Of a stretch of DNA of 34,090 bases, positions 582 to 31,077 are shown one piece after another. The notes beneath the pieces are model-generated. The model was not told the origin of the DNA, made no database searches, and saw nothing but the letters and a program-made list of their open reading frames with translations. The stretch's first letter is position 1, and the number at the start of each line of letters is the position of its first letter. The stretch comes from Candidatus Gottesmanbacteria bacterium (GTDB lineage: Bacteria > Patescibacteriota > Microgenomatia > UBA10105 > UBA927), in NCBI GenBank assembly GCA_016182725.1, contig JACPFZ010000046.1:1-34090 (forward strand), in the 5' to 3' direction. Both the position numbers and the translations under genes were made by a program.

Positions 582-2468
582 ATGGCAAAAATAATCGGTA
601 TTGATCTTGGAACCACAAATTCATGTGTGGCAGTCATGGAGGGTGGAGCTCCAAAAGTGATTTATTCGGCCGAAGGAAGAAACGTCATCCCCTCGGTTGT
701 GGACCCTGTGAAAAATATCGTGGGAGATGTCGCTAAGCGTCAGATGGTGATAAACCCTAAATCTACGATTTTTTCCGTCAAGCGTTTGATGGGACGAAAA
801 TTTAGTGACAAAAGCGTTGCTTACGACCTGAAATGGCTTCCGTACGCCATAAAATCCGGGAAAAACGCCATGGTGGTCGTGGAAGTGGAAGGCCGGCAAT
901 TTACCCCGCAGGAAGTTTCCGCAAAAATTTTATCTAAAATCAAAGCAGACGCCGAGCATTATCTGGGCGAACCGGTCAAGCAAGCCGTCATTACGGTCCC
1001 TGCATATTTTGATGACAGCCAAAGGCAAGCAACCAAGCAGGCAGGGGAAATTGCAGGACTTGAAGTCTTGCGTATTCTGAACGAACCCACAGCAGCGGCT
1101 CTTGCGTACGGACTTGACAAGAAAAATGTGCATACCATCGCGGTCTACGATTTAGGAGGCGGAACGTTTGATATTTCCGTTCTTGAGCTTGGAGATGGCG
1201 TGTATGAAGTCAAGGCAACCAACGGCGATACGCACTTGGGCGGCGATGACTTTGATAAAGTGATTTTGGACTTCTTTGCGGAAGAGTTTAAAAAAGAGCA
1301 CGGCGTGGATTTGCGGAAAGATCCGCAGGCTCTGCAACGGTTGCGCGATGCGGCGGAGAAAGCAAAAATTGAGCTTTCTTCATCCATGGAAGCAGAGATT
1401 AACCTCCCCTTTATTACTCAAGGCAAAGAAGGGCCACTGCACCTTGTGATGAAGCTGAATCGTGCCAAACTGGAAGCACTCGCCAGCGATTTGATTGCCA
1501 AAACCATCGAGCCAGTCAAAAAGTGTTTGGCTGATGCAAAAAAGAGCGCGAGCGAGATTAACGAAGTGGTCCTCGTCGGCGGCATGACGCGGATGCCGAA
1601 AGTCATCGAAGTTGTCAAAAACTTTTTTGGAAAAGATCCGAATCGGTCCGTGAACCCTGACGAAGTGGTGGCTGTGGGAGCCGCGGTGCAGGCAGGAGTT
1701 CTCTCCGGCGACGTCAAAGATGTTGTTTTACTGGATGTGACCCCTTTGACGCTTGGCGTTGAAACATTGGGCGGAGTGTCTACGCCGCTTATCTTGCGAA
1801 ATACTACGGTGCCGACGAGCAAATCGGAAATTTTCTCAACTGCAGCTGATAACCAAACGTCCGTTGAAATTAATGTCCTCCAGGGCGAGCGGCCGATGGC
1901 AACGGACAATAAATCTCTGGGCAGGTTTGTGCTTTCTGGCATTCCCGCTTCCCCCCGTGGTGTACCGCAGATTGAAGTGACGTTTGACATTGATGCAAGC
2001 GGGATCCTGAATGTGACGGCGAAAGACAAGGCAACAGGGAAAGTGAGTACGATTAAAATTACCGGCTCCACCGGTCTTTCCAAAGACGAGATTGAGAAGA
2101 TGAAGAAAGAGGCGGAAGAGCACGCGGCGGAAGATACGGCCAAAAAGGAGCGCATTGAAGTACGAAATCGCGCTGACAACATGCTTTACGTGGCGGAAAA
2201 AACGCTCAAAGATGCCGGCGACAAGGCAAAAGAAGAAGACAAAAAGATGGTAGACAGTAAGATGAAGGAATTAAAAGATATTTTAGAAACGGGAAGTAAG
2301 GAAGACTTGGAAACCAAAACCAGCGAACTTTCCGATGCCGTCCAAAAGGTGGGCGCCGCGGCGTATCAAAATCCGCCAGCTGGACAACCCGGCTCACAGG
2401 AAGCTCCATCAGAGGACGGACAAAAGAAAGAAGAGAAGAAGGTGGAAGAAGGAGAGGTGGTAAGTTAA
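582..2468 (+). CDS. dnaK: Chaperone DnaK (Hsp70); start set at [14 protein letters not shown] rather than the longer ORF start at 549
   Basis: [60 protein letters not shown]. Confidence 0.98.
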
Positions 2469-2510
2469 TTATCAAATTATCAAATTGCGAATTATCACAA
2501 CGAGAACAAG

Positions 2511-2528
2511 GGCGCGCGTAAGCGCGCC
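2511..2528 (+). promoter_or_regulatory. GC-only hairpin with GTAA (GNRA-type) tetraloop between dnaK and dnaJ
   Basis: GGCGCGC-GTAA-GCGCGCC, extendable by one G-C pair on each side (2510/2529). Confidence 0.7.
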
Positions 2529-2535
2529 CAATTGA

Positions 2536-2541
2536 TATAAT
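2536..2541 (+). promoter_or_regulatory. Putative -10 box for dnaJ
   Basis: TATAAT, 10 nt before ATG at 2552. Confidence 0.5.
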
Positions 2542-2551
2542 AGAGGAATCT

Positions 2552-3457
2552 ATGGCAACGAAACGCGATTATTATGAAGTGTTGGGAGTTTCTAAAGGCG
2601 CCTCAAGCGATGAAATCAAGAAGGCATATCGGAAGCTGGCGTTGGAGTGGCATCCGGACAGAAATAAAGCCTCAAATGCCAATGAGAAGTTTAAAGAAAT
2701 CAACGAGGCATACGCGGTGTTATCCGATGCGCAGAAAAAATCCACGTATGACCAATTCGGCCATGCCGCCTTCGCCCCCGGTGGGGGCTTCGGCGGACAA
2801 GGCCGCGAAGGACCATTTGGTGGATTTCGCCAACAGGGACCTTTTACCTATTACTACTCAACCGGCGGTCCGCCAGCTGGCGGAGGCATGCCATTTGGCG
2901 ATGTGGAAGGCTTTGATCCGTTTGAGATCTTTGAGCAGTTTTTTGGCGGCGGTTTTTCTCGTTCGGCAGGCGCTCGACCGCGGCGCGAAGTGTATCAGAT
3001 AACGATTGATTTTGTGGAGGCAGTAAAAGGAACAACCAAGGAGATTCATTTGCCGAGGGGTCGCGCTGGTGAAGGATCAGTGCGCAAAACCATTAAAATC
3101 CCAGCAGGCGTCGATACCGGTTCGCGCATCCGGTTTGAGGATTTTGAGATGGTCATTGAAGTGCGACCGGACAAGCACTTCCGACGGGAAGGAAACGATG
3201 TCTTTATTGACTATGAAATTTCGTTTGCGCAGGCTGCTCTTGGTGTGGTTGCCGATGTGCCAACCATTGACGGAGACGTAAAAATCCGCATTCAGCCGGG
3301 CACCCAGCCGGGAACTTTGATCCGTCTACGGGGCAAAGGCATCCCTCATGTCCAAAGTGGCGGTCGGGGAGATGAGTACGTCAAAATCAGCCTTCAGGTT
3401 CCCACGCATCTTTCGCGCCGACAGCGCCAGCTTCTTGAAGAGCTTGACCATGGGTAG
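2552..3457 (+). CDS. dnaJ: DnaJ-family co-chaperone, CbpA/DnaJB type (no zinc finger)
   Basis: J domain with HPD (WHPDRN), G/F-rich linker, C-terminal substrate-binding domain; no CXXCXGXG repeats. Confidence 0.93.
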
Positions 3458-3471
3458 AATCGTGGTATAAT
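3444..3471 (+). promoter_or_regulatory. Predicted sigma-70-type promoter for nusA operon
   Basis: TTGACC-N16-TATAAT overlapping the 3' end of dnaJ. Confidence 0.7.
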
Positions 3472-3495
3472 GAAGGGTAGTTGAGAGGTTTGAAG

Positions 3496-3518
3496 AGGTG
3501 GGTTGACCCACCTTTTTT
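3496..3518 (+). terminator. Intrinsic terminator/attenuator in the nusA leader
   Basis: AGGTGGG-TTGA-CCCACCT followed by a T tract, about 20 nt after the predicted TSS. Confidence 0.8.
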
Positions 3519-3549
3519 ATTAAGATTTGTTAAAAGGACAAAAATGGTC

Positions 3550-3622
3550 ACTCCGTAACATAAGAATGTACGGAGTACAGAAACACTAAAGCTCTTCGCT
3601 ATAAAGCGAATCGCTAAGTGTT
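3550..3622 (+). promoter_or_regulatory. Structured nusA 5' leader: two further stem-loops
   Basis: ACTCCGTA(N11)TACGGAGT at 3550-3576; AACACT...AGTGTT enclosing TTCGCT-ATAA-AGCGAA at 3582-3622. Confidence 0.65.
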
Positions 3623-3628
3623 ACTAGT

Positions 3629-4702
3629 ATGCCAGCGATAGTTCGAAGCGAATTTTCATTAGCGTTAAATCAAGTTGCCACCGAGCGGGGGATTGATCCT
3701 GCGGTTGTATTAGATACGATCAAGGCGGCTATTGTTGCCGCGTACCGCAAAGACTATGGCGCGGATGAGATTGAGACCCTTTCTGTGGAGCTTAATTCTG
3801 ACACAGGGGAAGCAAAAATTTTTAAAGAAGGGAAAGACATTACTCCTCCGGGATTTGGCCGGATCGCTGCCCAGACTGCCAAGCAAGTTATTCTGCAGCG
3901 GATCCGTGAGGCAGAAAAACAGGCAGTATTAGCCGACTATCAAACAAAAGTCGGCTCTATTGCCTCCGGAATGATTCTTCGGTTTGACGGTCCCAATGTG
4001 ATTGTAGATATTGGCCGCACGCAGGCAGTGATGCCGCCACAGGAGCAAAGTCAGGGCGAGCGCTACCACCTCAACCAGCGCTTGACCTTCTATATTGAAG
4101 GCATCCGTGAGACGTTGCGCGGCAACGAAATCATTGTTTCCCGAGCACATAAGGGGCTCGTGGAGGGACTCTTCCGTCGCGAAGTGCCGGAAGTGGCAAG
4201 TGGTGCGGTCATCCTTAAGATTACAGCACGGGAAGCCGGCGGACGCACAAAAGTCGCAGTCGCCTCCACGCAGTCCGGTGTGGATCCGGTCGGTTCGTGT
4301 GTTGGACAAAAGGGCGTGCGCGTTCAGGCAGTGATTGGCGAACTCGGGGGAAACGAAAAAGTGGATATCATTCAGTGGAGTGAGGATTCCAAACAGCTTA
4401 TCATGGCGGCTCTCGCCCCTGCCAAAGACCTCGAAGTCGTCCTCAACGAAGCCAAAAAATTCGCAGAAGTACTGGTGCCAGATGATCAGCTTTCGTTGGC
4501 CATTGGTCGGGATGGACAGAATGTACGACTGGCAGCGAAGCTCACGGGGTGGAAGATTGATATTCGCGGGAAGGGAGCGCCATTAGTCCCCAGAACAATA
4601 CCTCCCGCGCTCACCGATAGTCAAGTGGTGACCCCGACTCCCACCAAAGAAGCAAAACCAGAAGAACCAACTATTGAAAGTCAGTCTTTGCAGAACACCT
4701 AA
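3629..4702 (+). CDS. nusA: Transcription termination/antitermination factor NusA
   Basis: NusA N-terminal domain, S1 region, KH regions (DPVGSCVGQKGVRVQAVIGELGGNEKVDIIQWSED; LAIGRDGQNVRLAAKLTGWKIDI). Confidence 0.97.
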   Translation: MPAIVRSEFSLALNQVATERGIDPAVVLDTIKAAIVAAYRKDYGADEIETLSVELNSDTGEAKIFKEGKDITPPGFGRIAAQTAKQVILQRIREAEKQAVLADYQTKVGSIASGMILRFDGPNVIVDIGRTQAVMPPQEQSQGERYHLNQRLTFYIEGIRETLRGNEIIVSRAHKGLVEGLFRREVPEVASGAVILKITAREAGGRTKVAVASTQSGVDPVGSCVGQKGVRVQAVIGELGGNEKVDIIQWSEDSKQLIMAALAPAKDLEVVLNEAKKFAEVLVPDDQLSLAIGRDGQNVRLAAKLTGWKIDIRGKGAPLVPRTIPPALTDSQVVTPTPTKEAKPEEPTIESQSLQNT

Positions 4703-10117: not shown

Positions 10118-11245
10118 ATGTCAAAGCTCACTGATGAAGTGGCAAATCTCACAAAACTCGTTGTTGAGGCAAAACTTCCCCGCGATTTAGAAACCCGTGT
10201 TGCCGGGAATCTTGAAGAAATTGTTCGTTTGGAAAGCGACATCACCGCGCGCGTCCATATAGAACAAATGCTTCGGTATATTGACTGGGTGGTCCACCTC
10301 CCTTGGAACGAGCGCACGAAAGATACATTAGACTTAGCAAATGCGCGAAAAATTCTTGATGCCCACCACTATGGTTTGGCGCCGGTCAAGGAGCGAATTT
10401 TGGAATATTTGGCAGTTCTTAAGCTCAATATTGAACGCTGGCAACAGGAATCTGAGATCCGATTCCCGGAATCGGGGAGCATTGATTCAGGGAATCGTCA
10501 AGGTGAAGCAAAACTTTCTCACGCAATACTGGCCCGCCGTGCGCCCATTCTTTGTCTCGTTGGTTTAGTCGGTACCGGAAAAACCACGCTTGCCAAATCT
10601 ATTGCTGATGCCATGGGTCGCAGGTTTGTGCGGATTCCCTTTGGTGGCATGAGCGACGCATTGGATCTTCGCGGACAGTCGCGGGTGCGGCCTGACGCAG
10701 AAATCGGCCTTATTTTGAAAGGTTTGCGATTTGCCGGAAGTAAAAATCCGGTCATGCTTTTAGATGAAATTGACCGCGTCGCAGATAGCACCCGTGGCGA
10801 TATCATGGGAGTTCTCGTGGAGCTTTTGGATCCGGAGCAAAATGTTTCGTTTAGAGATCATTACCTCGACTATCCGTTTGATCTTTCTGATGTGTTATTC
10901 ATTGCAACTGCCAACAATACGACCAATATCGCAACCGCAGTGCTCGATCGTTTAGAGCCTATTCAAATGCCCTCCTATTCCGACGAAGAAAAAATTACCA
11001 TTGCAAAAGATTACGTCTTGCCGCTTCTCATGAAAGAATCGGGATTAACCCAAGAAAATTTAACCATAGACGAGGCTATTTGGCCAAAATTGGTGCGGCC
11101 GTTAGGGTACGATGCAGGCATCAGGAGTCTTGAGCGCACGATGAATAGCTTGTGCCGCAAAGTTGCGCGCATGATGGTAGAAGGCCGCGGCAAAAGTTTC
11201 CATATCACACCGGACAACATTAAAGAATTTATCGAAACATACTAA
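10118..11245 (+). CDS. Lon-type AAA+ ATPase without N-terminal LON domain and without C-terminal protease domain
   Basis: HYGLAPVKERILEYLAVLKLN...PILCLVGLVGTGKTTLAKSIADAMGRRFVRI, NPVMLLDEIDRV, GIRSLERTMNSLCRKVARM; stops where the Lon AAA+ module ends. Confidence 0.88.
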   Translation: MSKLTDEVANLTKLVVEAKLPRDLETRVAGNLEEIVRLESDITARVHIEQMLRYIDWVVHLPWNERTKDTLDLANARKILDAHHYGLAPVKERILEYLAVLKLNIERWQQESEIRFPESGSIDSGNRQGEAKLSHAILARRAPILCLVGLVGTGKTTLAKSIADAMGRRFVRIPFGGMSDALDLRGQSRVRPDAEIGLILKGLRFAGSKNPVMLLDEIDRVADSTRGDIMGVLVELLDPEQNVSFRDHYLDYPFDLSDVLFIATANNTTNIATAVLDRLEPIQMPSYSDEEKITIAKDYVLPLLMKESGLTQENLTIDEAIWPKLVRPLGYDAGIRSLERTMNSLCRKVARMMVEGRGKSFHITPDNIKEFIETY

Positions 11246-12973
11246 ATGAAATTTTTTCGAAGACACCAACACACCATTTACCAGGGATCTGCCCACGTGG
11301 GGAAAGACGCTCTTCGACTTGTTCCTCTCGGCGGCATCGGCAACGTGACTAAAAACATGTACGTGTATGAATATCGCGTGGACGGGAAACTGCGCGATAT
11401 TTTGCTTGTGGATTGCGGAGTGGGGTTTCCGGATGCCGAGATGTACGGCGTGGACTTGGTGATTCCTGATGTCCGGTATCTATCTGATAAACGGGATAAA
11501 ATCCGGGGTCTGGTGTTTACCCATGGACACGATGACCATATCGGCGGGATTCCCCATATTTACCCAAAACTCGGCCGCGTGCCGATGTGGGGCACAAAGT
11601 TGACTGCGGCATTTGCCAATATTAAACTCAAGGAACAAGCGATCCGGACCCAGGTTCAACCAGTTGACTTCGGGCAAGAGTTGCACATCGGGCCCTTTAC
11701 GGTGAGTTTCGTTCGTGTGACCCATTCTATTCCAGATGCTTCCAATCTCATTATCCAAACCCCCATCGGTATTTTTTACCACGGCAGCGACTTTAAGTTT
11801 GATTTTCAGCCGCTTGATGGAAAACGTTCCGAAATTGAAAAAATCAATGCCGTGGGACGTCGTGGCGTGTTGTGTTTGCTTACGGATTCATTGGGAAGCG
11901 AGCGGCGCGGGTTTACCCCGTCGGAACAAGTAATTGGTGAGACTTTGGAGAAAGAACTCTCTATGTGTTCAGGAAAATTTTTGTTTACGACGCAATCCTC
12001 AAACATTTCGCGGATTCAACTTGCGATTGAAATTGCCCTCAAGCACGGCCGGAAGATTGCGTTTTTAGGAAGAAGTATTGATCAAAATACAGAAGCCTCT
12101 CTCAAAATTGGTTACATGCGGTTTCCGAGGGAGGCGGTGGTTCGCGATCGAGATCTCAAACGTCTTCCTCCGATGAAACAATTCCTTGTGGTGGCGGGAG
12201 CACAAGGACAGCCGGGGTCAGCGCTTTCCCGGATAGCCAATGATGATCACCGGTTTGTCCACATTGAAGAAGGCGATAGCGTGGTTTTTTCTGCAGATCC
12301 TATTCCGGGCAATGAAAATAGTGTGAGTGCGCTTATTGATGAGCTTTATCGCAAGGGTGCGCGCGTTGCCTATTCCAATATCATGGAGGATTTGCATGTA
12401 TCCGGCCACGGCAGCCAGGGGGATCTTATGCTCATGCTCTCTAGCGTTGGCCCGCGATATATTTTCCCGATCGGTGGTACGTATCGGCACATGATGCAGT
12501 ACCGCAGGCTGGCGCAGGATTTGGGGTATGATAAACGCGACGTGCTGATTCCCGAAGAAGGAGAAATTTTGGAATTCCGTCCGGGAATGCCGCCGAAAGT
12601 TGTACAAACCTTGGAGCTTGAGAATGTCATGATTGACGGGTTAGGGATTGGCGATGTGGGAGAAATCGTCCTTCGTGATCGGCAAACCATTGCCACTGAA
12701 GGCATCGTGATTGTCATTGTTCCCATGGAAAAATCAACGGGAAGAGTGACGGCCGAGCCGGATATTGTGTCCCGCGGCTTTGTCTATATGCGTCAGTCCG
12801 AGGAGCTTATTGGTAAAGCAAAGCGACTCGTCATGGAGTCATTAAAACTCAGAAAAGGCCGCATCATTGATTGGCAATTTGTGCGCAAACAAATTAGCGG
12901 CAATCTTGACGAATTTTTAGCTCGTGAAACCGGCCGCCACCCCCTGATCGTGCCGGTGATCGTGGAAGTGTAA
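11246..12973 (+). CDS. rnj: Ribonuclease J
   Basis: Metallo-beta-lactamase motif FTHGHDDHIGGIPHI, beta-CASP region, DLHVSGHGSQGDLMLM, C-terminal domain. Confidence 0.96.
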   Translation: MKFFRRHQHTIYQGSAHVGKDALRLVPLGGIGNVTKNMYVYEYRVDGKLRDILLVDCGVGFPDAEMYGVDLVIPDVRYLSDKRDKIRGLVFTHGHDDHIGGIPHIYPKLGRVPMWGTKLTAAFANIKLKEQAIRTQVQPVDFGQELHIGPFTVSFVRVTHSIPDASNLIIQTPIGIFYHGSDFKFDFQPLDGKRSEIEKINAVGRRGVLCLLTDSLGSERRGFTPSEQVIGETLEKELSMCSGKFLFTTQSSNISRIQLAIEIALKHGRKIAFLGRSIDQNTEASLKIGYMRFPREAVVRDRDLKRLPPMKQFLVVAGAQGQPGSALSRIANDDHRFVHIEEGDSVVFSADPIPGNENSVSALIDELYRKGARVAYSNIMEDLHVSGHGSQGDLMLMLSSVGPRYIFPIGGTYRHMMQYRRLAQDLGYDKRDVLIPEEGEILEFRPGMPPKVVQTLELENVMIDGLGIGDVGEIVLRDRQTIATEGIVIVIVPMEKSTGRVTAEPDIVSRGFVYMRQSEELIGKAKRLVMESLKLRKGRIIDWQFVRKQISGNLDEFLARETGRHPLIVPVIVEV

Positions 12974-21529: not shown

Positions 21530-23344
21530 ATGAAATCAGCAGAGGTGCGGCGGAAATACATTGAATTTTTTAAAAAACGGGGACACGTGGAAATTCCGTC
21601 AGCTCCATTAGTACCGGAAAATGATCCAACCACATTATTCACTTCTTCGGGCATGCAGCCGTTGATTCCTTACCTCCTTGGTCAACCACATCCACTTGGA
21701 AAACGATTAGTCAATAGTCAAAAATCGTTCCGCAGTCAGGACATTGAGGAGGTGGGGAACAATCGTCACACCACATTTTTTGAAATGCTCGGCAACTGGT
21801 CGCTCGGAGATTATTTTAAAAAAGAACAATTACCATGGATTTTTGAATTTTTGACAAAAGAACTTGAACTTCCCAAAGGCAAACTTTATGTTTCCGTTTT
21901 TGAGGGGACAGGCGATATTCCAAGAGATGAAGAATCAGTGAGGATTTGGAAAAACCTCGATGTACCAGATGAGCGCATATTTTTTTATGGTGTGAATAAA
22001 AATTGGTGGTCCCGTTCCGGTGAACCTGAACACATGCCTCCGGGTGAACCCGGAGGGCCAGATAGCGAAGTATTTTATGATTTTGGCGAGGAGTTGAAAC
22101 TTCACGAAAAGTCTCCTTGGAAAAATGAAAAATGCCATCCCAACTGTGACTGCGGCAGATTTATGGAAATTGCTAATTCCGTTTTTATGCAGTACCAAAA
22201 ACAGGCAGATGGAACGCTTAAAGAACTTACACAAAAAAACGTGGATTTCGGCGGGGGACTGGAGCGCATGGTCGCAGCAACAGAAGATACTTCAGATGTG
22301 TTTACTACTGATTTATTTACTTCGATGTATCGATACATCGAAGTATTATCGGGAAAGCGGTATGGGGAAAATCAAGAGGAGACCAGGGCGATGAGGATTA
22401 TCATGGACCACATTCGCGCAGCGGTGATGATGATGGCGGATGGCGTACTTCCGTCAAACAAAATGCAGGGATATGTTTTGAGGAGACTCATTCGCCGCGC
22501 ACTTTTTTACGGCAGAACACTGGGTCTTTTGAAAGATTGGAACTATATTGGTCAATTAGTAGAACCCATTGCGCAAATTTATGGTAATGCGTATCCCGAG
22601 GTGGTGACAAAAGCAGGAGAGATTACATTGCTTTTGGATGAAGAAGCCATGCGGTTCGGGAGAAGTCTGGATAAAGGTTTGGCAGAAATCGAAAAATTAC
22701 CAAAGCTTGACGGAAAAATTGCCTTCCAACTTTACGAAACATATGGATTCCCATGGGAAATGACAGAAGAAATTGTGCGTCGTAATGGACAACAGATTAA
22801 CAGAGCCCAGTTTGAGGCAGAATTTGAAAAGCATAAAGCAGTGTCGCGTACCGCAGCAGCGGGCATGTTTAAAGGCGGGTTGGCGGATTATAGTGAGGAA
22901 ACAACGAAGCTTCACACGGCGCATCACCTTTTACTTGCTTCACTTCAGAAAGTCGTTGATCCGAACATCAAACAACGCGGGAGCAACATTACTGCAGAAC
23001 GGCTCCGGATGGATTTTAATTTTGCCAGAAAGTTATCAGACGAAGAGATTAAAAAAGTTGAAGTGTTGGTGAATCAAACAATAAAAGAAAACTTGTCGGT
23101 GACCCGTGTTGAAATGGATTGCACGGATGCAGAAAAAATCGGTGCACAGATGGAGTTTGGACATAAATATCCAGATCGTGTGAGCATATATTTTGTCGGG
23201 CCACAAGACAAATTTTTCTCCGCCGAATTTTGCGGCGGACCTCATGTTGAACACACGGGGATACTTGGACACTTTAAAATCATCAAAGAAGAATCTGCGG
23301 GTATGGGCATTCGGCGTATCTATGCAATATTAGAGGTTGCATAA
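21530..23344 (+). CDS. alaS: Alanyl-tRNA synthetase, short form without C-terminal DHHA1/C-Ala domain
   Basis: FTSSGMQPLIPYLLGQPHPLGKRL, FFEMLGNWSLGDYFKKE, editing-domain HTAHHLLLASL...AEFCGGPHVEHTG; ends directly after the editing domain. Confidence 0.96.
   Translation: MKSAEVRRKYIEFFKKRGHVEIPSAPLVPENDPTTLFTSSGMQPLIPYLLGQPHPLGKRLVNSQKSFRSQDIEEVGNNRHTTFFEMLGNWSLGDYFKKEQLPWIFEFLTKELELPKGKLYVSVFEGTGDIPRDEESVRIWKNLDVPDERIFFYGVNKNWWSRSGEPEHMPPGEPGGPDSEVFYDFGEELKLHEKSPWKNEKCHPNCDCGRFMEIANSVFMQYQKQADGTLKELTQKNVDFGGGLERMVAATEDTSDVFTTDLFTSMYRYIEVLSGKRYGENQEETRAMRIIMDHIRAAVMMMADGVLPSNKMQGYVLRRLIRRALFYGRTLGLLKDWNYIGQLVEPIAQIYGNAYPEVVTKAGEITLLLDEEAMRFGRSLDKGLAEIEKLPKLDGKIAFQLYETYGFPWEMTEEIVRRNGQQINRAQFEAEFEKHKAVSRTAAAGMFKGGLADYSEETTKLHTAHHLLLASLQKVVDPNIKQRGSNITAERLRMDFNFARKLSDEEIKKVEVLVNQTIKENLSVTRVEMDCTDAEKIGAQMEFGHKYPDRVSIYFVGPQDKFFSAEFCGGPHVEHTGILGHFKIIKEESAGMGIRRIYAILEVA
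22318..22345. repeat. 28-bp perfect palindrome with no spacer, inside alaS
   Basis: TACTTCGATGTATCGATACATCGAAGTA equals its own reverse complement. Confidence 0.95.
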
Positions 23345-23350
23345 ACATTC

Positions 23351-24175
23351 TTATTTACGATATGGTCTCCAGGCTCGGATTACTTTTGGATTCCTTGGGT
23401 TGTTTTCTGTATCAAGCGCAAGAGGTGGTATCAAATAGGCATGGCGGTCTACCCAGGGGTAGTGGCCTGGCGTTGTCGATCCTATCGCCAGCGCAAGAAT
23501 CTGTGCGTTGCATCCTTTGGGCAGCTCATTATTTATTTTTTGGACTTCGTCCAGGAGCGGAACCGTGTCGCCAACTTTTTCCGGTGGATGGGGAAAACGA
23601 CCAAGCGTACACAACATGAGGGACAACGTGCCAAGCCGAGCATTGAGCGGCAGGTCAGCGCGATGGGTAGCGCTAGTTATTCTTTCTCTTACTGTAGTAA
23701 GAGCAAGATTATTGGTTGGCACAAATGCAGCGACAACCGAAAGTGAATTCTGTTCTTTGTCTTGCGTTATCATGATGCGCTCTAGCTCTAAGGCTATTGG
23801 TGGTATGTCAGGGTTGGCAAACTCTCCCCGGAGAACTTCGTGGTATCGAGCAGCTGTTTGAGCGTTTACACCGGCAGTTTTTCTCCCATTTGGATCAAAG
23901 CGGAATTCTCCAAATGTGATATGCCGAAACCCATCAGGTATTGGCCACGTGGCCGGTTCAAGTACTTGGATGCGCTGTGTGATTTCACCTAAGTATCTAT
24001 CAGCAGGGCCGGAAATGAATCCACAGGTATAGAGCGAATAGCGGGGATCTTCTTTTCCCAGAAGAAAAGGATTATCCTGAGTAGCATCTGCGCGTATGAT
24101 GTCTCTTGCTGCTTTGGCAATCTCATTGTGAGCAGAGACTAATTGACCTCTCATTTGTTCAAATTCGGTTGGCAT
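23351..24175 (-). CDS. Hypothetical protein, possibly 2H-phosphoesterase-like
   Basis: One HxT-like motif (FRHITFGEF) and a later LSLMLCTLGRF that may be a degenerate second motif. Confidence 0.45.
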   Translation of the reverse strand: MPTEFEQMRGQLVSAHNEIAKAARDIIRADATQDNPFLLGKEDPRYSLYTCGFISGPADRYLGEITQRIQVLEPATWPIPDGFRHITFGEFRFDPNGRKTAGVNAQTAARYHEVLRGEFANPDIPPIALELERIMITQDKEQNSLSVVAAFVPTNNLALTTVRERITSATHRADLPLNARLGTLSLMLCTLGRFPHPPEKVGDTVPLLDEVQKINNELPKGCNAQILALAIGSTTPGHYPWVDRHAYLIPPLALDTENNPRNPKVIRAWRPYRK

Positions 24176-24283: not shown

Positions 24284-25855
24284 TTATGGTGACTTAAAGC
24301 CCATCTGATGATGAAACGTCGTATGAAGAAGATTTTTTACTTCCGCATCACATTGTTTTAGTCCGGTAACGTCTGTGCGCTGTTTTGCCTTGGCGACGGC
24401 AAGATCAACTTGTGTTTCATATGAAGCCTGCCCATCAACTGAAAGTAAATTTTCAAGGTACCGCGGAATCATTGCAATGCCGCTATAGTTGAGATCACTC
24501 GTTTGGCGGGCAAGTTTAGTAATGAGCGCTTCGTAATCAGTTTCCTCCAGATCGTACTGCGGGATAATTGCCCGGAGAAAATACTCCCGTTTTTGTTCAT
24601 CCGGCAAAGGGAAATATATTGGATTAAAACGACGCAGAAATGCTGCTTCTACATCTGGGTGATTGAGTGTTGCCAGAAGATATATTCTGTATGTATCTTC
24701 CAGTCGCTCCAGAAGCGTTAACGCCTGCGCCCGTTTTTCCGGATTAACAAAACCTGTTCCGGGTTGTGGTAATCTTCCCACACCCATAGAGCTCTGAAAC
24801 AGCGATTCCACATCATCAAGGCAAACGACCATGGGAAGATCAAAAATCCGTCGTAGTCTGGCAAGACGCGGGAGGATTTTGTCTTTGAATACATATTCCC
24901 CGTTCGGCAACGTCTTTGAGAGAATATCTACGGGAAGATACACAGTAACTACATCTTTATACGTTGCAAATACCTGCGTAAGCGCGCTTTTCCCTACTCC
25001 CGGCGCTCCCAGAAGGAGCGTATTCATTGGTGTTCCGGTTCTCCGTTTCAGCGGCCCGTACAAATTATTCTCCAAATCCATACGCTGCGTATTAAGACCA
25101 AATAATTCATCCGGCGCTATCTGCGGGATCATCTCCGAGAGCATGCGATGGTACACGTCGACCATGATCTTTCGCCGTGCGGGCAAGGTTTCTCTCAATC
25201 GCTCGGGGGTTGAGACATCCAGTTTATCTTCCATAATAAGTGCATGCATGATCGCAAGGTAGGCGAGCTCAACTTCCGAATAACTCCCAAAGTTACGAAT
25301 TTCCAAAATTCCGTTCTGAGGGATTATTTTGCTGCGTTTTTCAGCAAAAACCTGCATCATGCCGACAACCGGCTGATGACGTTCACCAATAAAAAATATT
25401 CCTCCCCGCTGGTAGGGATTATTACGAAGTTTTGGAGAAAGGTTTGTAGCAGCAAGATAATAGTATGATTGTGGAGCTGTGATGCGATGCTGCAGGAGCG
25501 ATAATGCCCCATATTTTTCCGGCGGAAATGCAAAAAACATTCCCTCCACAAGCGTTTGTGTCGCATTCAGATCCATCAGAATTTGCTTCATGCTCAGGAT
25601 TTGAGAATCGTCGACGTGCTCATAGGGAATTTCAATACTAATAAAGTGCTCTTCTCGAGATTCAGTCGTGGTTATTTCTATATGCGGTGGGGGTAACTCG
25701 GATACCCCATATTCTTTCAGGACAGCGTTTACGGTATCGATAAAACTCGTCAAACGATCTGCCTCACCCTCCAAAGGAGAGACCAGAGGATTTTCTGATC
25801 GCGGGCGGGACTGAAGCGGAGATTCCTTCTGTGCTGTGCCTTGTTCGACTGCCAT
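24284..25855 (-). CDS. AAA+ ATPase with uncharacterised N-terminal domain
   Basis: Walker A LLLGAPGVGKSAL; Walker B-like MVVCLDDVES; AFLRRFNPIYFPLPDEQKREYFLRAII. Start at MAVEQGTAQ. Confidence 0.8.
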   Translation of the reverse strand: MAVEQGTAQKESPLQSRPRSENPLVSPLEGEADRLTSFIDTVNAVLKEYGVSELPPPHIEITTTESREEHFISIEIPYEHVDDSQILSMKQILMDLNATQTLVEGMFFAFPPEKYGALSLLQHRITAPQSYYYLAATNLSPKLRNNPYQRGGIFFIGERHQPVVGMMQVFAEKRSKIIPQNGILEIRNFGSYSEVELAYLAIMHALIMEDKLDVSTPERLRETLPARRKIMVDVYHRMLSEMIPQIAPDELFGLNTQRMDLENNLYGPLKRRTGTPMNTLLLGAPGVGKSALTQVFATYKDVVTVYLPVDILSKTLPNGEYVFKDKILPRLARLRRIFDLPMVVCLDDVESLFQSSMGVGRLPQPGTGFVNPEKRAQALTLLERLEDTYRIYLLATLNHPDVEAAFLRRFNPIYFPLPDEQKREYFLRAIIPQYDLEETDYEALITKLARQTSDLNYSGIAMIPRYLENLLSVDGQASYETQVDLAVAKAKQRTDVTGLKQCDAEVKNLLHTTFHHQMGFKSP

Positions 25856-25918
25856 AACGTACCGGGCAGGGGCGTATGAATATACATTATACCGCATAAT
25901 AAGACAAGGGTACATAAG

Positions 25919-25947
25919 TTGCCTTGCTTCTCCACGACTGCTAGTAT
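25919..25947 (+). promoter_or_regulatory. Putative promoter
   Basis: TTGCCT-N17-TAGTAT, 6 nt before ATG at 25954. Confidence 0.45.
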
Positions 25948-25953
25948 AGAGCT

Positions 25954-28116
25954 ATGGAACTCCCACAGGTGCTTGGGCATTTTGTGCATGCAAAAGAAGA
26001 AAAAAAAGAACTCTTCCTTTCCCTTCTTTTGGGTATTGACGGAGTCATTGCCAGTAGTTGGCAGGTGTCGGAGAAGCGCTTGCCCGTTGTTGTTGGGGTC
26101 TCCCAGAAAGATGCTGCTTCGGATTCGTGGGATGAGCGGTTTGCCGCAGCAGATCAAGCGATTTCTTCTCTTGAGTCAGCCAATCTTTCTCTCAACAAAG
26201 TGATTTTCGGACTTCCAGCATCGTATCTTACGGAAACGGGTGATATCCAAAAAACAGTCCGTCCGTACCTCAAAAAATTGACGCACTCCCTTGCTCTTTC
26301 TCCCATGGGGTTTGTCAGTATTCATCAAGCAATTGTGCATCATTTAAAGTATCACGAAGGGGTGCCGCCGACGGTTATTCTCTTGGGCATTGCAGGATCA
26401 ACCATTACTGTTTCCGTGTATAAAATTGGGTCGTCTGTAGGGCAGAAGTACATTGAAAAGGCTGGTGATGTTGTGACGCAACTTGAGGAAGTGTTGCAGA
26501 GTTTTACCGAGCTTGAGGTATTGCCGTCCCGGATTCTTCTTTATGGAATTCATCATGACCATCTAGAAGAGGTGAAACGGGAACTTTTGCGTCATCCCTG
26601 GCAGACGGCCGCAAACTTCATGCATTTTCCAAAGATCGATGTGTTGCCACAAGATAGCCTTATTGGCGCTGTTTCTTTAGTTGGTGCAAGTGAACTGGCC
26701 ACCAGTCTTGGTCCGGAGCAGGAGGAAGTTGTTGCGGAGGCGGTAGTACAGGAAAAACAAAAGGAAGAATTGAAGGAAGAGTCTAACGTTGTGTTCGTAG
26801 ATCCCACTCGTCTGGGATTTAAGAGAAGTGTTGACGTACGGGAGGAACGATCCACTGCGCGGGAGGAACAGCGAAAGAAAGAGCCTCTCCAGGGAGAGGA
26901 AATTCCCCAGAAACAGGTGCGTGGGATCTCACTACCCACGTTCCCTTCCCTTCCTTTTGACCGACTTGGGTCATTTATTCCCAGGCTTCTGGTATCTTCC
27001 CGATACCTAGCGGCTATTGGGGTAACTATCGCGATTGTTGTGTTGCTTTGGGGATTCTACTGGTTTGTTCCCAGAGTTTCTGTAACGGTTTATGAAGTTC
27101 CCAAGAAACTCACAAAAACCATGGACATTGCGGTAGATTCTACGGCCACCGTTCCCGATAGCACGTCAAAAATCCTGCCCGGCAAGAAACAGGAAAAAAG
27201 TATTCCCGGAGAAAAAACGATAGCCGTGACCGGGAAAAAGCAGGTCGGTGATCCGGCAAAGGGAGCGGTGGCTATCACGAATAGAACATTTAATTCAATT
27301 ACTCTCCCCAAAGGCACAGTACTTACGAGCGGGGATTTGCAGTTTACGTTAGATAACGCTGTTTCCATTGCTTCAGCAAGTGCATTTGATCTAACGAAAA
27401 ATACGGGAAGCATTACGGCAGGTGTCATCGGAGCTAAGAGTAATCTTTCATCGGGAACAACGTTTATAGTAAAAGGATATGAATTAAGTGAAGTAGCGGC
27501 GAAAAATGACAAGGAGCTTTCCGGCGGGACCAGTCGCGACGTGACGGTAGTCACACGGCTAGATCAGGACAGTCTCATCAAATCACTCACCAAGGAGCTT
27601 GTAGAGGGCGCAAAGCAAGAGCTGTCCGGGAGTGTCGGGATGGGGGATCAACTCATCGATGAAACGATTAAAACCACCGTGACGGATAAATCCTTTGTCG
27701 AAGAATTGGATCAAGAAGCAAGTAATCTTCACGGGAAAGCCACTATTGCCGTTTCCGGCATTTCATACAGCAAGAGTGATTTGTCTGCGTTTCTTGAGAG
27801 TGCTGTTGCGAGTGATATTCCATCCGGCTATGTCTTTGATCCCAAATATACCACTGCAACTCTACGGGATATTGAGGTAAAAAAGGACGGCAAAGTTACG
27901 GCCTCGGTACAGTTTGAAGGGACTGCAACCCCGCAACTCGACCTGGTCGCCATACGCCGTAGCCTTTCCGGGAAAACGATTGTAGGGGCCCAGGAATACC
28001 TTAAGACTATTCCGGGCGTGGGAGCTGTTTCCTTTCGGTTTCAAATCCAACTCTTAAAAGGGAGACTCCCCGTCAATGCAAACAACATCACCATTAGTGT
28101 GGCAGTACAGGAATAA
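25954..28116 (+). CDS. Membrane protein: N-terminal actin-like (PilM/FtsA-like) domain, single TM, extracytoplasmic baseplate-J-like region
   Basis: GLPASYLTETGDIQKTVRPYLKK and VILLGIAGSTITVSVYKIG (actin-like); TM YLAAIGVTIAIVVLLWGFYWFV; GAVAITNRTFNSITLPKGTVLTSGDLQFTLDNAVSI (baseplate-J-like). Confidence 0.65.
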   Translation: MELPQVLGHFVHAKEEKKELFLSLLLGIDGVIASSWQVSEKRLPVVVGVSQKDAASDSWDERFAAADQAISSLESANLSLNKVIFGLPASYLTETGDIQKTVRPYLKKLTHSLALSPMGFVSIHQAIVHHLKYHEGVPPTVILLGIAGSTITVSVYKIGSSVGQKYIEKAGDVVTQLEEVLQSFTELEVLPSRILLYGIHHDHLEEVKRELLRHPWQTAANFMHFPKIDVLPQDSLIGAVSLVGASELATSLGPEQEEVVAEAVVQEKQKEELKEESNVVFVDPTRLGFKRSVDVREERSTAREEQRKKEPLQGEEIPQKQVRGISLPTFPSLPFDRLGSFIPRLLVSSRYLAAIGVTIAIVVLLWGFYWFVPRVSVTVYEVPKKLTKTMDIAVDSTATVPDSTSKILPGKKQEKSIPGEKTIAVTGKKQVGDPAKGAVAITNRTFNSITLPKGTVLTSGDLQFTLDNAVSIASASAFDLTKNTGSITAGVIGAKSNLSSGTTFIVKGYELSEVAAKNDKELSGGTSRDVTVVTRLDQDSLIKSLTKELVEGAKQELSGSVGMGDQLIDETIKTTVTDKSFVEELDQEASNLHGKATIAVSGISYSKSDLSAFLESAVASDIPSGYVFDPKYTTATLRDIEVKKDGKVTASVQFEGTATPQLDLVAIRRSLSGKTIVGAQEYLKTIPGVGAVSFRFQIQLLKGRLPVNANNITISVAVQE

Positions 28117-28117
28117 C

Positions 28118-28843
28118 ATGCTCTATCAATACATTAAAGCCAAACCAAAACGACCCATTCGGCGGCCACTCATTGTTTCATTTGTTCTCATGAGTGTGGG
28201 TACGGGCATTCTTTTGTGGGTTCTCTGGCCCATTGTGTCATTTACCATCTTTAGCGCGCCGCTTTTTGGCGTCACCGTAAGTCCTATGATATCTACCGGT
28301 GAAGTGACGCAAGCAAAGTCCGTTCTTCCACAGGCAATGGCAGCAACAGGCCCCGATACAATCGGGGTTGATTACACGAACGCAAACGTCTGGTATCCCA
28401 CGAAACCTCAGAAAAAGGTGGTGACCCAAGTAAATAGTTACACACTTTCCATTCCCAAACTCAACATAGAACATGCACTTGTTCTCATTGCTGGAGAAGA
28501 TTTGATTAAGAGCTTAATTCACTATGGGGGTACAGGGCTACCCGGCGAGTATGGAAATGCGGTCATATTCGGCCATTCGGTGTTACCGCAATTTTTTGAT
28601 CCCACCAACTACAAAACAATTTTTTCTACCTTGCCGACGTTATCCATTGGCGATGATATTTTTATTACCTACGATGGTATTACGTATAAATATAAAGTGT
28701 TCGATATGATTGTTCGCGATCCCAATGATTTGGCAGCGTTGGAACAGCAGTATGATGATTCTTACATTACGCTTGTTACCTGCGTGCCGCCCGGAACGTA
28801 CTGGAAACGGTTAAATGTAAAAGCAAAATTGGTGAGGATTTAA
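28118..28843 (+). CDS. Sortase family transpeptidase
   Basis: N-terminal TM; YTLSIPKLNIEHALV, NAVIFGHSVLPQFF (His), YITLVTCVPPGTYWKRLNVKAKL (Cys, Arg). Confidence 0.9.
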   Translation: MLYQYIKAKPKRPIRRPLIVSFVLMSVGTGILLWVLWPIVSFTIFSAPLFGVTVSPMISTGEVTQAKSVLPQAMAATGPDTIGVDYTNANVWYPTKPQKKVVTQVNSYTLSIPKLNIEHALVLIAGEDLIKSLIHYGGTGLPGEYGNAVIFGHSVLPQFFDPTNYKTIFSTLPTLSIGDDIFITYDGITYKYKVFDMIVRDPNDLAALEQQYDDSYITLVTCVPPGTYWKRLNVKAKLVRI

Positions 28844-30105
28844 TGACCCCAACGTCGTCACAACAATTGGCAATTGAAGCAATTAAAAAGAAGCTGGTGG
28901 GCAAGCCTCTTTCCTATAATGAAATTTTTGCCATCATGGATGAGATCGCCAGTCAGCGGTTGGGACCGGTGTTGACGACGTATTTTGCTGCCGCAGGGTT
29001 TAAGGAAGGATTTTCTGATGAAGAACTCTATTTTCTCACCAAATCCATGGTGGCAACAGGCCCGAAACTGCATTTTAAGGGTATTGTGGCAGATAAACAC
29101 TCCACCGGCGGGGTAGCCGGCACCAGAACCACGATGATTTTGGTGCCCATCATTGCTGCGGCAGGATTTCAAATCCCGAAAAATTCTTCCCGCGCGATTA
29201 CCTCGCCAGCCGGGACCGCAGATACCATGGAAGTAGTGGCACCCGTTACGTTTACCCCACGTGCTATTGAACGACTCGTTGCTCGCGCGGGTGGTTGCAT
29301 CGTGTGGGGCGGACATTTGGGTTTGGCTCCTGCCGACGATATCATTATTCAAGTTGAACAGCCATTAGCATTTGAGTCCTTTGATAAAATTATTGTTTCC
29401 ATTATGGCAAAGAAAGTAGCTTCGGCAGACACCCATTTAGTCTTAGATATTCCCGTGGGACCAACGATGAAAATTGCGCATTTTAAAGATGCGGAAATTA
29501 TTGCCAAAAAATTTACATTTTTGGCTAAAAAATTCGATATTAAGGTCATTGTAGACATAAATCAAATTCGGCAAAATGCCGGACGGGGAGTGGGACCAGT
29601 ACTTGAAGCACGAGACGTATTTCAGGTGTTAGAACAGGATAAAAACCGACCGCTTGCCCTTGAGGCGCGGGCCCTGCGGCTTGCCGGAAAACTGTTGAGC
29701 TTGTGTTTTGCCGATACGCCGGGGAAAAAAGATGTGATCGGCGAAGATGTCGCTCGGGAGATGCTGACTTCTGGGAAAGCGTTATCCAAGATGCATGAGA
29801 TTATTAAAACACAGGGAGGAAATCCACACGTAGAGAGCCGCCAACTCAAACCCGGAAAATTTACTCATGATGTACCATCACACCAGAAAGGCAGAGTAAG
29901 TAGCATCAACAATAAACAAGTTACGGTGATTTGTCGCATTTTGGGATGCCCGACGGATAAGCTGGCTGGAATGTATGTCCATCGGAAATTAGAGGAGCAT
30001 GTGGACAAAGGTGATATACTATGCTCGTTGTATAGCTCGGATAAGTGGCGGCTCAAAGAAAGCATAGAAACAATGAAAAATATTGCTGTTTTCTCTCTGG
30101 AGTAA
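28843..30105 (+). CDS. deoA: Pyrimidine-nucleoside/AMP phosphorylase family (AMP-phosphorylase-like signature)
   Basis: DKHSTGGVAGTRTTMILVPIIAAAGFQIPKNSSRAITSPAGTADTMEVVAPV; overlaps sortase stop by 1 nt (TAATG). Confidence 0.88.
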   Translation: MTPTSSQQLAIEAIKKKLVGKPLSYNEIFAIMDEIASQRLGPVLTTYFAAAGFKEGFSDEELYFLTKSMVATGPKLHFKGIVADKHSTGGVAGTRTTMILVPIIAAAGFQIPKNSSRAITSPAGTADTMEVVAPVTFTPRAIERLVARAGGCIVWGGHLGLAPADDIIIQVEQPLAFESFDKIIVSIMAKKVASADTHLVLDIPVGPTMKIAHFKDAEIIAKKFTFLAKKFDIKVIVDINQIRQNAGRGVGPVLEARDVFQVLEQDKNRPLALEARALRLAGKLLSLCFADTPGKKDVIGEDVAREMLTSGKALSKMHEIIKTQGGNPHVESRQLKPGKFTHDVPSHQKGRVSSINNKQVTVICRILGCPTDKLAGMYVHRKLEEHVDKGDILCSLYSSDKWRLKESIETMKNIAVFSLE

Positions 30106-30108
30106 ACG

Positions 30109-31077
30109 ATGAAATCGAATACAACCCGTTTGGGAATTTTACTTTTTGTTCTTGTTATTGGTATGGGGAGTGCCGTTGTCTGGTGGGCAGAAGGGACATC
30201 ATCTGTAGATCCTTCAGATTCGGCGCCGATCATGTTTGTCGTGACTCGTGGGGAAGGGGTGCGTACTATAGCAAGTAATCTCGCGCAAAGGAAACTCATC
30301 CGAAATCCCATTACCTTTTTTCTGTTGGTAAAGTTTTTAGGACTCGATAGTAATTTACAAGCGGGTGATTTTCGCTTGAACCGTACCATGAATGCGGGAA
30401 ATATAGCTCGAGAGCTAACCCATGGGATGGTCGATGTATGGGTGACGACACTTGAAGGATGGAGGTCTGAAGAAATTGCAGGGAAATTAACAAAAGAACT
30501 TGATATCCCGGAAAGTGAATTTCTGCGCTTTGCAAAAGAAGGATATCTGTTTCCCGATACCTACCTTATCCCGAAAACGGCAACACCAGCAGCCATTGCT
30601 CAGTTGTTTTTGGATACATTTAATAAAAAAGTAACGAGCCAAATGCGTGTCGATGCACAAAAAATTGGTCTCACGTTTGATCAAGTCATCGTTTTAGCAT
30701 CTATTGTGGAACGCGAAGGAAGAACCAATGAAGACCGTCCTGTTATTGCAGGTATTCTCCTCAAACGTTTGAAAGCCGGATGGCCACTGCAGACTGATGC
30801 GACGTTGCAGTATGCTCTCGGATACCAGCCGGAGCAAAAAACGTGGTGGAAAAAAGAGTTAACTGATGCAGATAAACTTATTGCCTCACCGTACAATACG
30901 TATGCCCACCCCGGACTGCCTCCCGCGCCTATTGCCAATCCCGGCCTGGCTGCGATCAAAGCCGTCATTTATCCCGCAGACACGCCCTACTGGTATTATC
31001 TTCATGATGATAAAGGAGTTGTGCACTTTGCCAAAACTATCGAGGAGCACAACGAAAATATTGCCAAGTATCTCTAG
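30109..31077 (+). CDS. mltG: Endolytic murein transglycosylase MltG
   Basis: [94 protein letters not shown]. Confidence 0.95.
   Translation: [322 protein letters not shown]

Follow-up and report, generated by a model that had tools for sequence, protein, structure and literature searches.

Gene content of the locus

The window, meaning the whole stretch of DNA that was analysed, comprises 34,090 nt from a Candidatus Gottesmanbacteria bacterium (GCA_016182725.1, contig JACPFZ010000046.1, positions 1-34,090 of the forward strand). The GTDB lineage of the source is Bacteria; Patescibacteriota; Microgenomatia; UBA10105; UBA927. Patescibacteria are a phylum known for its small cells, which live on other bacteria. 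The original prediction described three genes in this window, i.e. an AAA+ ATPase, a protein that fuses an actin-like domain through one transmembrane (TM) segment to a baseplate-J-like region, and a sortase. All three genes are found where they had been placed, and the domain plan of the fusion protein is confirmed. The locus looks like an envelope module, and its features are as follows.

21530-23344 (+): alaS, conserved upstream neighbour of the fusion gene
23351-24175 (-): orphan gene, 274 aa, apparently inserted along with the ATPase gene; no match in Pfam or PADLOC
24284-25855 (-): AAA ATPase, 523 aa from its likely start; almost certainly an insertion, outside the conserved system
24482-25132 (-): AAA module of the ATPase, with Walker A, Walker B and sensor/Arg-finger region
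24986-25009 (-): Walker A of the ATPase, GAPGVGKS
24812-24817 (-): Walker B DD of the ATPase
25954-28116 (+): fusion protein, 720 aa; degenerate actin-like cytoplasmic domain, one TM segment, baseplate-J-like extracytoplasmic region
25954-26709 (+): fusion residues 1-252, degenerate FtsA/PilM-type actin-like domain (hmmsearch, hhalign, motif counts)
26710-27012 (+): fusion residues 253-353, charged and variable linker (homologue alignment)
27013-27069 (+): fusion residues 354-372, single strong TM segment (hydropathy)
27181-27558 (+): fusion residues 410-535, baseplate-J-like core region (Pfam Baseplate_J in homologues; PDB 8v3w, TRI-2)
27559-28113 (+): fusion residues 536-720, extracytoplasmic C-terminal region of unrecognised fold, conserved phylum-wide
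28118-28843 (+): sortase, 241 aa, N-terminal TM; catalytic H153, C222 (28781-28783) and R231
28843-30105 (+): thymidine/AMP-phosphorylase family gene, downstream neighbour in part of the class
30109-31077 (+): mltG (endolytic transglycosylase), conserved downstream neighbour

The sortase gene starts one nucleotide past the stop of the fusion gene, as originally described, and mltG lies two genes further downstream.

The inserted ATPase and orphan gene

The ATPase reading frame as called spans 24284-25915 (-). Homology to its sole homologue begins only after residue 20 of this frame, so the start more likely lies at 25855. The N-terminal domain is about 240 aa long and not about 280 aa as first proposed, while its description as unrecognised stands, as it matches nothing. 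The ATPase scores 21.3 bits against Pfam AAA (cut-off 21.2), and the nearest solved structures in a PDB search are AAA proteins of the Vps4/CdvC/Cdc48 type. Classical AAA features are present (Walker A, Walker B and the second region of homology), with the Walker B ending in DD as a deviation. This DD had been pointed out earlier and is kept in the single homologue, which makes it a trait of the subfamily and rules out a sequencing slip. The inserted ATPase differs from the Cdc48/Vps4/CdvC-type proteins in its unrecognised N-terminus, its Walker B, its single AAA module and its known membership of only two proteins here. An AlphaFold model from a two-row alignment was poor (mean pLDDT 46).

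The ATPase is carried by two of 374 genomes of the class and by one of 380 genomes sampled across the phylum, that one being the source genome; the 23 other genomes searched in the same family lack it. A search for relatives in genome contigs, viral contigs and phages gave a sole match, on G047 contig JACOXO010000020.1 (Ca. Gottesmanbacteria), and a plasmid search gave two weak matches to the AAA domain. In the second carrier, also a member of Gottesmanbacteria, the ATPase gene (contig 36) is separated from the fusion and sortase genes (contig 32). The orphan gene is found in one of 187 class genomes (none of the 186 others).

Conservation of the neighbourhood, which the original prediction had named as a check, holds for the fusion-sortase pair but not for the ATPase. 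At 17 of 19 other class loci the junction between alaS and the fusion gene is closed, with gaps of -65 to +36 nt. The distance in the window is 2609 nt and is occupied by the ATPase and orphan genes. Because alaS normally abuts the fusion gene elsewhere in the class, these two genes appear to be an insertion. Their GC content is similar to that of their neighbours, so the insertion is not obviously recent. Two loci of a sister family, L037 and L038, hold different inserts at this position (1556 and 3577 nt), that of L038 with genes resembling SET-domain and Fic proteins; the junction thus accepts foreign genes.

The ATPase is almost certainly an unrelated rare insertion beside the fusion and sortase genes. 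Together with the orphan it would represent a lineage-specific event, and a role with the fusion protein is not supported. The original prediction had united ATPase, fusion protein and sortase in a single assembly across the membrane, which could build or anchor a surface structure. The phyletic pattern already largely refutes this: the expected co-occurrence fails, an outcome that the prediction itself had named as refuting, since the fusion gene is near-universal in the class (present in 55 of 59 relatives) whereas the ATPase is not, and the genes are unlinked in the other carrier. GspL-type proteins do dock an ATPase (PMC4471445), which would favour such an assembly, as would the adjacency and divergent transcription of the ATPase and fusion genes across a 98-nt gap, seen in this one genome. 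However, the ATPases docked in GspL-type systems belong to the GspE/PilB family, whereas the window ATPase is of the Cdc48/Vps4 type. A three-part assembly is accordingly very improbable. What stands of it is the fusion and sortase as a conserved adjacent pair in an envelope-like locus, from which the ATPase is removed as a false lead.

It is also quite unlikely that the two inserted genes form a mobile defence cassette of the IetA kind. Their rare and patchy distribution would fit, and the C-terminal portion of the AAA region weakly matches IetA in PADLOC (E 5.9e-6), but this match may come from the shared AAA fold only. The subtilisin-like partner IetS is not found among the window neighbours, where the ATPase is flanked by the orphan gene and alaS, or among the open reading frames around the homologue at locus L053. 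The GC content of the insert, the phage records without a homologue and the plasmids with only two weak AAA-domain matches also argue against a mobile cassette. An IetA identity was dropped as unproven. Around the homologue at L053, a tyrosine-recombinase-like gene lies about 2 kb away (10430-11290, -), a hint of mobility; at about 2.5 kb there is also a gene for a VirB4/TraG-like type IV secretion ATPase (2042-4387).

The fusion protein

The original prediction called the actin-like domain degenerate, and comparison with unfused homologues bears this out. In 14 of the first 15 loci from outside the class, a separate protein matching the fused domain is encoded directly upstream of the baseplate-J gene. 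The fused domain is related to these unfused homologues by hmmsearch (E 1.6e-15 and weaker) and by hhalign (99.4%, E 6e-22; unrelated control pairs at most 1.3%). The unfused homologues in turn match FtsA and PilM models of Pfam and NCBIfam, e.g. Pfam FtsA at 1.5e-18 and TIGR01174 at up to 5e-38, and the best of them matches FtsA crystal structures in the PDB at 1.9e-15. The family nevertheless stays below the FtsA equivalog cut-off (best 131 vs 175.85 bits). It aligns with PilM over the full length (hhalign 99.2%). Set directly against PilM, the fused domain reaches only 9.5%, so the link between these two runs through the unfused family. Sequence comparison confirms residues 1-252 as a decayed actin-like domain of the FtsA/PilM type.

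To measure the extent of the decay, 34 fused and 14 unfused sequences were aligned together. All 14 unfused sequences have both the phosphate-2 Asp and the phosphate-2 Thr, whereas the Asp is kept in 2/34 fused sequences and the Thr in 0/34. The phosphate-1 Asp is found in 12/14 unfused sequences and does not belong to the residues that the fused sequences have in common. The fused sequences also lack a block of 84 residues at the position of the inserted subdomain of FtsA and a block of 39 residues after phosphate 2. Relative to its unfused homologues, the fused form has therefore lost its nucleotide-binding residues and about 130 residues in total, and judging from these motifs it probably no longer binds nucleotide. 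The locus thus does not encode two nucleotide-binding components, as had been proposed. The same genomes keep their own canonical proteins: a separate strong FtsA is present in 16/16 genomes checked, the source genome included, and a full PilM of the source genome is encoded on another contig. An AlphaFold model of the fusion protein from a single sequence was poor (mean pLDDT 36).

Pfam Baseplate_J (PF04865) matches the outer region in 15 of 20 fusion homologues (best 1.5e-7), although not in the window member on its own. A profile of the homologues matches the tailocin baseplate protein TRI-2 (PDB 8v3w, E 2.6e-4) and gp47. The fusion family thus has a core of about 100 residues in common with Baseplate J/gp47-like contractile-tail proteins, from which it differs in its single-TM membrane anchor, its housekeeping locus and the lack of any other tail gene seen alongside. 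Viral contigs gave no match to the fusion profile. An origin of the outer region from PilN was considered and rejected, as no relation was detected: hhalign gave 0.2-0.4% against a PilN set of only two sequences, and there was one weak Pfam PilN match (E 0.038).

The sortase and conservation of the gene pair

The sortase matches PF04203 (E 1.7e-21), and its catalytic His, Cys and Arg are invariant across 15 homologues. The traits of class C (pilin) sortases are absent, since the only TM is N-terminal and the class C score is 62.5 against a cut-off of 160. A search of the source genome for canonical LPXTG-type anchors with Gram_pos_anchor gave nothing above the cut-off, with a weak model of 43 positions that also rings in unrelated controls. 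A sortase family, fam000526, is near-ubiquitous in Microgenomates according to the part of Meheust 2019 used here (PMC6744442). The window sortase probably belongs to this family, and the near-ubiquity of fam000526 matches the distribution seen here. The description of fam000526 in that part of the paper does not mention a fixed place beside an actin/baseplate fusion.

Loci of the class keep the gene order alaS - fusion - sortase - (ruvX) - (phosphorylase) - mltG. The sortase gene usually touches the fusion gene and adjoins it in every class locus where both are readable. The fusion and sortase genes belong to an ancient conserved envelope gene block of Patescibacteria (CPR). Some members of the class have the phosphorylase gene between sortase and mltG, and some relatives also have ruvX there; ruvX is absent from this position in the window.

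An unfused pair across the phylum

The fusion protein from its TM segment onward is found in 171 of 192 sampled Patescibacteria, which places the baseplate-J-like membrane protein close to a core envelope component. In the matches outside the class, the N-terminal domain is missing from the baseplate-J protein. The usual gene order there is alaS, actin-like gene, baseplate-J gene, ruvX and mltG, as seen in 20 neighbourhoods with strong hits and 20 with weak hits (L110-L129 and L155-L174), which were chosen by score and not at random. In the strong-hit set, the actin-like gene is the immediate upstream neighbour of the baseplate-J gene in 18/20 and alaS is recognised in 16/20. In the weak-hit set, the actin-like gene precedes or nearly precedes the baseplate-J gene in 13/20 and is nearby in one more, with alaS recognised in 14/20. 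Five weak-hit loci have alaS followed directly by the baseplate-J gene, with the actin-like gene missing. The membrane protein therefore appears to be the constant element, with its partner lost in places.

No published description of the actin/baseplate-J locus was found in a literature coverage that was incomplete, most subscription papers lying outside it. We tentatively suggest that the locus might be an undescribed Patescibacterial envelope module, in which a baseplate-J-like membrane protein and an FtsA/PilM-type actin-like partner are encoded at a fixed place beside alaS, ruvX and mltG and, in the Microgenomates-type class, were merged into one GspL-like protein that acquired a dedicated sortase. 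If this is true, the module would amount to a trans-envelope machine that defines the phylum. That the two proteins are naturally fused in a single class points to their working together elsewhere, and the baseplate-J-like protein provides a concrete gene target in cultivated Patescibacteria.

A proposed GspL-like scaffold and alternative roles

Type IV pili have PilM bound to the short cytoplasmic tail of PilN; this PilMN complex is the counterpart of GspL, a type II secretion protein that docks the motor ATPase through its cytoplasmic domain (PMC4471445). In GspL, a single chain combines an actin-like cytoplasmic domain whose nucleotide site does not work, one TM segment and an extracytoplasmic domain, and the fusion protein has the same plan. 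GspL corresponds to a two-protein pair elsewhere (PMC4471445), as does the fusion protein, which would thus be an independent case of one chain standing for two proteins, as GspL does for PilM plus PilN. The two differ in that the outer region of the fusion protein is baseplate-J-like and not PilN/ferredoxin-like, and in that its gene lies in an alaS-mltG locus with a sortase and without a GspE-type ATPase gene alongside. No type II secretion genes (GspE, GspM) were named around the fusion gene, with 1-34 kb read as open reading frames and family searches covering 21-31 kb. The likeness to GspL is architectural, since no relation between the outer region and PilN could be detected.

The best explanation, to which we assign a probability of about 0.6, is that the class-specific fusion protein serves as a GspL-like scaffold across the envelope, which its sortase links to work on the wall, with the ATPase and orphan as an unrelated insertion. 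In this class, the FtsA/PilM-type actin-like protein of the phylum-wide pair has been fused to its partner, the single-pass baseplate-J-like membrane protein, and the nucleotide site was lost after fusion, as in GspL. Without that site, the actin-like part probably serves as a static platform on which cytoplasmic partners dock. The TM segment and outer region may then carry the cytoplasmic link across the membrane to the wall zone; there, the membrane sortase encoded next to the fusion protein would attach surface proteins. Points against this explanation are the poor AlphaFold models, the low direct match of the fused domain to PilM, the outer region without a detected relation to PilN, the lineages without an actin-like partner and the failure to find sortase substrates.

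A serious, though less probable, rival is that the fusion protein and the unfused pair belong to the divisome or elongasome side, as an FtsA-like scaffold that positions wall remodelling by MltG and not a surface appendage. It is serious on account of the likeness of the unfused partner to FtsA and the nearness of mltG: most unfused members are closer to FtsA than to PilM (TIGR01174 vs TIGR01175), SHS2_FTSA is weakly matched by the unfused partner, and mltG lies within the locus. The order alaS-ruvX-mltG is old and common in bacteria, however, so the proximity of mltG is weak evidence and may be inherited rather than functional. The canonical FtsA present separately in all genomes checked also argues against a division role, as does an outer region that resembles baseplate proteins and is unlike known division proteins.

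Compared with the GspL-like scaffold, it is rather unlikely that the pair is an accessory platform for type IV pili or type IV secretion with the baseplate-J protein in place of PilN. The outer region showed no relation to PilN in the comparison with two PilN sequences, and the genome carries a gene for a full PilM on another contig, although the full-length alignment of the unfused family to PilM would be consistent with such a platform. A VirB4/TraG-like type IV secretion ATPase adjoining the pair would be as well, but it was seen in only 2 of the 40 neighbourhoods outside the class. The two cases, L115:11469-13922 (-) and L118:5214-7718 (+), come from members of one family.
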